A stretch of DNA of 64,000 nucleotides from an uncultured Lentisphaerota bacterium (GTDB lineage: Bacteria > Verrucomicrobiota > Kiritimatiellia > CAIQIC01). Made by a program: the position numbers and the translations under genes. This document shows positions 13,159 to 14,037 of this stretch, piece by piece (position 1 is the stretch's first letter; each line of letters opens with the position of its first letter). The stretch spans positions 1 to 64,000 of the forward strand of contig CAISWQ010000065.1 of assembly GCA_903889245.1 (NCBI GenBank), given 5' to 3'. The notes under the pieces are model-generated. The model saw only the letters and a list, made by a program, of their open reading frames with translations, did not search any database and had not been told where the DNA came from.

Positions 13159-13164
13159 GCTCTG

Positions 13165-13330
13165 TTTTCCAGGGCTTGGAAAACTCCGCGCGCTTTTTTC
13201 CAAGCCTTGGAAGATCCGGCCCGTTTTTTTCCCAAGGCTTGGAAAAAGCGGCCCTCGACACTTTCCTTCTGTCCCCGGCGGTCGGGCCGACCGCCCTCCA
13301 CCAATCGCCTCATGGAGGGCGGCGGGCCTC
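13165..13330. repeat. dyad repeat array and GC-rich hairpin downstream of the small secreted gene
   Basis: Three dyad copies (13165-13183, 13194-13212, 13224-13247) follow the stop codon within 7 bp. A CCCTCCA...TGGAGGG hairpin with GC-rich flanks at about 13291-13330 resembles the one at 5826-5858. This begins a 410-bp stretch (13159-13568) without an intact gene that also holds an AraC remnant and two more dyads. Confidence 0.8.
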
Positions 13331-13430: not shown

Positions 13431-13455
13431 GGACCTTGGAAATTATCCCGCGAGG

Positions 13456-13506
13456 TTTTCCAAGCCATGGAAAAAATGCGCCGGAAACGTCCAAGGTTTG
13501 GAAAAC
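13456..13506. repeat. two dyad repeats abutting the AraC remnant
   Basis: Copies lie at 13456-13475 (central CCATGG variant) and about 13490-13506 (CCAAGGTTTGG). A half copy (CCTTGGAAA) at 13434-13442 touches the break point of the AraC remnant. Confidence 0.65.
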
Positions 13507-13539: not shown

Positions 13540-13602
13540 GAGCTAACGAAGCCATTGAGGCGCGAGCTTTAGCGAGTCGCCTCCGATGGCTGGTTCGGGG
13601 CC
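13540..13602 (-). other. attC-like imperfect hairpin (candidate integron cassette site)
   Basis: On the minus strand the segment runs from CCGAACCAGCCAT near 13601-13587 to ATGGCTTCGTTAGCT near 13555-13541. The inner arms AGCCATCGGAGGCG and CGCCTCAATGGCT pair with one extra base in one arm, as attC sites do with extrahelical bases. The outer ends read CGAAC and GTTAGC, close to the RYYYAAC/GTTRRRY boxes. It overlaps the 3' end of the lipoprotein gene, the normal place for attC behind a cassette gene. No integrase is in the window. Confidence 0.45.
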
Positions 13603-13874
13603 TTCTGTTTCTTGGCTGCTTGGAGTCTTTCTCGGAACCCGGAACTCAGACCAGCCGCCTCTGTGTACAGGATTTCCTCACTCCAGCTCTTTCCAAACAA
13701 AGGAGCGGACTTCCGCAGGAGATATGCCTTGCCATCTGCCTCGCCTATGTACTCGGCCCAATGAAAGGTTTGGATCAAGCCAGTTTCGATTTCAAATTGC
13801 TTGGGCGAGACGTGATGAACACTGGCACATCCGGCCAGCACGAGCAGTCCCAACGCTATTGAATATGCCTTCAT
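13569..13874 (-). CDS. small lipoprotein of unknown function
   Basis: 101 residues from ATG 13874, which has an AGGAAGGTGG ribosome site. MKAYSIALGLLVLAGCASVHH is a lipoprotein signal with lipobox LAGC, so the mature protein is anchored at the inner or outer membrane. The remaining 80 residues (including FHWAEYIGEADGKAYLLRKSAPLFGKSWSEEILYTEAA) match no family I recognise. The last eight codons (NQPSEATR) lie inside the attC-like hairpin, suggesting that the gene arrived as a cassette. It is less GC-rich than its surroundings. Confidence 0.7.
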   Translation of the reverse strand: MKAYSIALGLLVLAGCASVHHVSPKQFEIETGLIQTFHWAEYIGEADGKAYLLRKSAPLFGKSWSEEILYTEAAGLSSGFRERLQAAKKQKAPNQPSEATR

Positions 13875-14037
13875 TTCCACCTTCCTCGAACAGTGTTGTT
13901 GGACGAACTTCAAGTTGTGTTTATGCGGTTTCAGTTTCCGCTCACGACGGCAGGTTAAAGAGACCTTGGCTCTAAGGCAAGGCGGGAAAGGAACCGTGTT
14001 ATCGGGCTTGGGCGGCGGCCTCTGGCGGGGTGTGGCG

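Follow-up and report, generated by a model that had tools for sequence, protein, structure and literature searches.

A probable integron cassette in one of a dozen dispersed attI platforms of an uncultured Lentisphaerota bacterium

Introduction

Integrons typically have one attI site, which lies close to the integrase gene, according to the available part of PMC9024848. The same part describes attI sites other than those of class 1 as little characterised and as not covered by the standard program. Systems with dispersed attI sites would for this reason be listed as isolated single attC sites or overlooked. Here we analysed a stretch of 64,000 nucleotides (the window) from an uncultured Lentisphaerota bacterium, in which a lipoprotein gene followed by an attC-like hairpin had been predicted, from the sequence alone, to be a possible orphan integron cassette.

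The system resembles a chromosomal integron in that an IntI above the family cut-off adjoins an attI, attC cassettes are present and the gene is read in the sense of the platform. The difference lies in the number of attI platforms, about a dozen where an integron has one; most of these lack intI and carry a single cassette or a few. With a CALIN, or a single attC without integrase in the terms of IntegronFinder, it has in common that one attC cassette stands by itself, with intI absent from the vicinity. However, attC sites alone define a CALIN, whereas the window cassette has an attI alongside; the available part of the description of IntegronFinder 2 (PMC9024848) has CALINs reported from two attC sites upwards, and the window has one. 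Insertion at attG sites (Loot et al. 2024, as cited in the available part of PMC12444791) also places cassettes at many genomic positions outside the integron, but attG is neither attI nor attC, while the targets described here are homologues of the intI-linked attI. In the Delta-attI-type cassettes of class 1 and 2 integrons, as presented in the available part of PMC12901181, attI sequence is likewise found outside its usual single place. There, however, a piece of attI replaces the cassette attC within one array, whereas here dispersed platforms lie upstream of the cassettes. We found no report of dispersed attI platforms in the open-access library searched, as far as the available parts of the related papers go (PMC12444791, PMC12901181, PMC9892861 and PMC9024848).

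We consider it likely that the cassette in the window sits in one of a dozen scattered copies of an intI-attI core, most of which have lost intI, and that a single IntI probably acts on them in trans.

Results

The lipoprotein gene of the window (minus strand, 13569..13874, with the ATG at 13874 and the stop at 13569) encodes 101 amino acids with the lipobox LAGC, and its C-terminus (...NQPSEATR) extends into an imperfect hairpin at the 3' end. The gene and, at 13541-13600, the hairpin were found as originally predicted, with the last codons running into the hairpin. The predicted lower GC content was also confirmed, as the cassette has 54.1% GC against 64.5% for the window, a value equally low in 4.7% of windows. 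A Pfam search with the protein gave no match.

The hairpin is part of a putative attC site at 13541..13600 on the minus strand, with an outer box at 13593-13600 (CCCCGAAC), the hairpin itself and a right crossover box at 13541-13547 (GTTAGCT). GTT crossovers are found at both ends of the cassette, on the left at 13891, where the similarity to the attI platform stops, and on the right at 13547. Counted from the T following the left crossover G to the right crossover G, the cassette measures 344 bp (13547..13890, minus strand), with attI at its left end and attC at its right end.

A cassette has a complete attC only when circularised, its own 5' end then supplying the right-hand box. For the window cassette, this 5' end (GTTCGAGG) pairs at 7 of 8 bases with the outer box CCCCGAAC, and the fold of the circular form runs through the paired outer boxes (-17.9 kcal/mol, z -4.4 for the bottom strand in mononucleotide shuffles). 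The linear 60-mer folds with about -13 kcal/mol (z -2.3 and -3.1, mononucleotide shuffles). Because the 5' end complements the outer box and the circle folds better, the main objection to an attC, namely the outer box that the original prediction had described as deviating from consensus, is removed. When a complementary outer box and a hairpin within 2.5 kb were scored together, the window cassette obtained 33, which was reached in 0.7% of 880 Markov sequences and 1.2% of 84 upstream controls. An Rfam scan around the site gave no integron-related match. The hairpin was also sought in the whole genome, and no second copy was found; the dispersal without cassette genes that would have spoken against a cassette is therefore not seen.

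Gene and hairpin could also be ordinary chromosomal sequence, with a terminator or a chance inverted repeat following a lipoprotein gene. The linear attC with its flanks has an unremarkable folding energy that stays within the shuffle range (z -0.8 and -1.4, dinucleotide shuffles), and a terminator scan gave plus-strand hairpins at 13581-13600 and 13767-13781, about the chance expectation, both of which would agree with such a reading. It does not account for the attI directly upstream, the complementary cassette ends with their circular-form z of -4.4, or the homologous gene that follows an attI in another genome, and we regard it as extremely improbable. Judged by this anatomy, the lipoprotein gene with its hairpin is very likely an integron cassette inserted in attI. 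The original prediction had proposed the cassette with its attC, but it had overlooked the attI at 13889-13994 and the intI at another place in the genome.

The homologous gene (44% identity over 91 amino acids) is the first behind an attI of G017, a genome from a different family of the same order. Both cassettes start with GTTCGAGG; the G017 copy has no convincing attC. Another homologue, in a Prosthecobacter MAG (L014 4573-6049), is one of three small consecutive genes, of which two or more are lipoprotein-like, with GGAACCGCGATT-type repeats on the flanks of the row; neither attI nor attC was seen by eye at this locus. Near the cassette, a palindromic TTCCAAGCCTTGGAA-type repeat occurs several times between genes of the window (13163-13254 and 13436-13506), and it is also intergenic in other contigs and in relatives, for instance at L012 7345-7420.

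Upstream of the cassette, at 13889..13994 on the minus strand, lies a copy of the attI platform, whose most conserved core (13889-13948) ends at the GTT crossover (G at 13891). This copy scored 73.4 bits (E 6e-20) against the 12-copy model R1 and 49.4 bits against model R2, both models having been built with the window attI included. The 21-base attI core pattern occurs once in the window, where 0 occurrences are expected. The window attI aligns with the region beside intI up to ACTGTTC, the crossover, and it retains the last ~105 bp of the platform. It does not adjoin intI, yet it is homologous to the attI of the resident integrase, with the cassette inserted at GTT.

Promoter-like hexamers are found within the platform in a degenerate form (13952..13980, minus strand; TTGCCT at 13975-13980, 17 nt, TAACCT at 13952-13957) and align with TTGCCA-17-TATCGT of the intI-linked copy. 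They did not pass in a promoter scan of the window. The regulator gene to the left of the platform has orthologues in G002 (81%) and G003 (70%), with no platform alongside. No exact empty site was found beside these orthologues, and the downstream or other neighbour genes differ too.

The genome has six matches to the integron-integrase family, one of which exceeds the curated NCBIfam cut-off (358.8 vs 265 bits). This match (C16:24189-25112) lies in an ORF of 449 amino acids with a SAM-like N-terminal domain and a catalytic tyrosine-recombinase domain. The search for an intI gene proposed with the original prediction thus found one, on another contig. 'Orphan' consequently describes the window cassette only in part: intI is not nearby, but the cassette sits in an attI and the genome encodes an integron integrase. 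On C16 a distance of 224 bp separates the intI start from the presumed attI. Cassettes come next, and the first of them starts with GTTCAGTGTCC, which complements its attC box perfectly over 11 bases. Among the platforms with flanks that were examined, an intact intI is found upstream only at G000_C16, in the genome studied here, and at G002_C41. Past the last attC of the intI-linked array (L012 12160-12775) there are two small overlapping ORFs, by eye an antitoxin and a PIN-domain toxin.

When the intI-linked attI region was used as a query, it matched 11 places in the genome (E 2e-7 or better). Counting the window, there are 12 attI platforms on 11 contigs, and one of them adjoins the intact intI. 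Similarity among the copies extends leftwards from the crossover for up to ~205-213 bp, which corresponds to almost the whole intI-attI intergenic region without intI, and the left edge of many falls around -204 to -213. When the 12 copies are aligned, mean pairwise identity reaches 0.90-0.93 in columns 74-111, compared to 0.57-0.65 in less conserved stretches, and it is also raised at the promoter-like hexamers (0.82 and 0.78). Non-orthologous alignments that reach the core stop at +1 to +8 of the crossover G in 405 of 473 cases, with different genes beyond; one extends to +197, via a shared cassette. Viral contigs gave 0 matches to one attI pattern, and plasmids gave none with the 206-bp attI region as query.

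Using the 110-bp model at E 0.01, matches were obtained in 13 of 56 relatives, including G007 and G042 (6 each) and the same-genus genomes G002 (14), G003 (15) and G001 (2). A family of dispersed attI sites is thus present in the genome and in the genus. The 60-bp model matched in 17 of 288 genomes of the class and in 9 of 288 genomes of a phylum sample, all nine belonging to the same class. Long relatives of intI were found, besides that of the genome itself, in G002 (85%), G007 (73%), G008 (69%) and G017 (77%, plus a second piece). The attI motif lies ~190-230 bp upstream of intI in G000, G002, G008 and G017, which are all the intI relatives with enough flank; the motif in G017 is weak (E 3e-4), and in G007 the contig stops before the region is reached. 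The 38 loci searched also comprised other intI families, and these have no such motif, as is expected if the attI is specific to its own integrase.

We also considered that the repeat might be a mobile promoter or a MITE-like element that is unrelated to recombination by IntI and adjoins intI by chance, as it adjoins other genes. Its multiple copies, the left edge shared by many of them and a right arm common to three are features that such an element would have. Its inner edge, however, is the GTT crossover with unrelated sequence beyond, the sequence past the crossover complements a downstream attC box, orthologous copies match outside and differ inside (see below), and the motif keeps a similar distance from intI in four genomes. 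Taken together, these features make a MITE-like origin very unlikely. The common right arm, which suggests a defined unit, follows the last attC of C103a, C103b and C64 over ~105 bp (L062 6384-6490, L064 right side and L063 4960-5060). The arm closes with a hairpin of the GCGTTCGTGAGAACGC kind and may be either the opposite edge of the unit that was copied or a terminator.

Several genomes (G001, G003, G024, G027 and G042) carry the attI motif and have no intI relative at E 1e-20. In G001, the genes that flank the integron of the genome studied here (bioB-like and DUF2723-like) are ~100 nt apart without an integron. In G003 both genes lie on one contig, 1.4 kb apart and without intI; this locus also holds a weak homologue (31%) of the antitoxin- and PIN-like ORFs noted at L012 12160-12775. 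Since the locus is present without intI in both genomes and the motif is kept, platforms can outlive intI.

Remnants of IntI were found beside four platforms that have no intact intI. Upstream of G002_C94, IntI residues 1-55 are closely followed by residues 394-434 (E 1e-7 or better). G007_C55 retains residues 9-46 and G007_C4 residues 1-34, and at G000_C19 there are weak pieces (11-30 and 436-449) in the correct order. The reversed-sequence control gave one match, with E 0.75. These remnants indicate that at least some of the orphan platforms are intI-attI cores from which intI was deleted.

Next to each platform we looked for the elements of a cassette. An automatic scan of the genome detected a complementary box and a hairpin (score of at least 30) at 8 of the 11 testable platforms, the window included. 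At C44, C123 and C113 boxes are visible only by eye, and at the C114 platform the contig ends. When the sites of all species were taken together, 21 of 43 had an outer box of 7/8 or better near the stop of the first ORF, compared to 7.0% of 8173 control windows, and 10 of 43 had one of 8/8, compared to 1.6%; a 7/8 box is missing there at the other 22 sites. A stricter scan (score of at least 32) retained 15 of 44 sites and left 29 below this value, compared to 2 of 84 upstream controls and 1.1% of 880 Markov sequences. At the few sites of G007 and G017, attC scores were not above those of the controls. Cassette starts resemble one another across sites. An ORF begins soon past the junction at 43 of 45 sites, modestly above random positions (67-69%).

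The products of the cassette genes include an EcoRI-type methylase, a TIR protein, an AAA_15 ATPase, a metallo-beta-lactamase-fold protein and a glyoxalase-fold protein, and several are lipoproteins by signal motif. Three of the genes are defence-like, encoding the AAA_15/AbiEii-like ATPase, the TIR protein and the EcoRI-type methylase in the first cassettes of G001_C5, G002_C117 and G000_C67 (L125, L105 and L065). At C123 of the genome studied here, the first segment behind attI (L059 5708-5870) has no ORF and resembles an attC-only cassette of ~160 bp, in which GTTCCCGCGACG lies near its complement CGTCGCGGGAAC; a second cassette with a lipoprotein gene comes next.

Comparison of orthologous platforms gave further insight into their content. 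Between G000_C113 and G003_C18 the outer flanks (81-87% and 85% at the DNA level) and the platform match, but the cassettes do not, and the same holds for G000_C67 and G002_C256 (flanks 87% and 81%). For G001_C75 and G003_C134 the match is limited to the right flank. Conversely, G002_C8 and G003_C18 have the same first cassette (405/492 bases, 82%), while the two platforms agree at ~73%, which is no more than they show with other platforms, and their outer flanks are unmatched. Turnover of cassettes at the platforms is well supported by these sequence comparisons.

These data also bear on the question whether the platforms are only relics, that is, cores that were copied or acquired widely, lost intI and are now decaying while IntI serves its own attI alone. 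Such decay would explain the intI fragments beside four orphan platforms, the genomes that carry platforms and no detected intI, the many platforms without a clear attC and the degenerate copies in G003 (for example C91 and C181). It is harder to reconcile with a crossover core that is still 0.90-0.93 identical next to stretches down to 0.57-0.65, with orthologous platforms that differ in cassette content, and with a cassette that is more alike (82%) than its two host platforms (~73%). We therefore judge it unlikely that relics are all that is left.

Discussion

The most far-reaching reading, which we hold to be somewhat probable, is that of a distributed integron, with one diffusible IntI and about a dozen attI-promoter platforms that would be non-autonomous, intI-deleted copies of the core, and with cassettes loaded singly and not queued in one array. 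In our preferred reading, which we consider likely, copies of the intI-attI core region would have spread over the chromosome. Most of them would then have lost intI, some keeping fragments of it (seen at four), with the attI crossover and the promoter-like stretch retained. The single IntI, encoded elsewhere, may recombine the attC of circular cassettes with the attI of any platform in trans; as far as the sequences can tell, that the one IntI present acts on all platforms is the most economical reading. Single genes would in this way be loaded, excised and exchanged at many loci, as suggested by orthologous platforms with different cassettes and by one cassette at unrelated platforms. A loaded gene would probably be expressed from the platform promoter, less convincingly so for the window copy.

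If this is true, several cassettes could each be the first behind a promoter, at different places on the chromosome, and every platform would be a marked hotspot for insertion. One enzyme may then swap genes at many places simultaneously. The platforms make it possible to test both the multiplication of attI as non-autonomous elements and the movement of cassettes between places in one genome. In G007, the attI sites at the ends of contigs C62 and C4 (L129 and L131) start the same cassette sequence, which is consistent with a repeated platform breaking the assembly.
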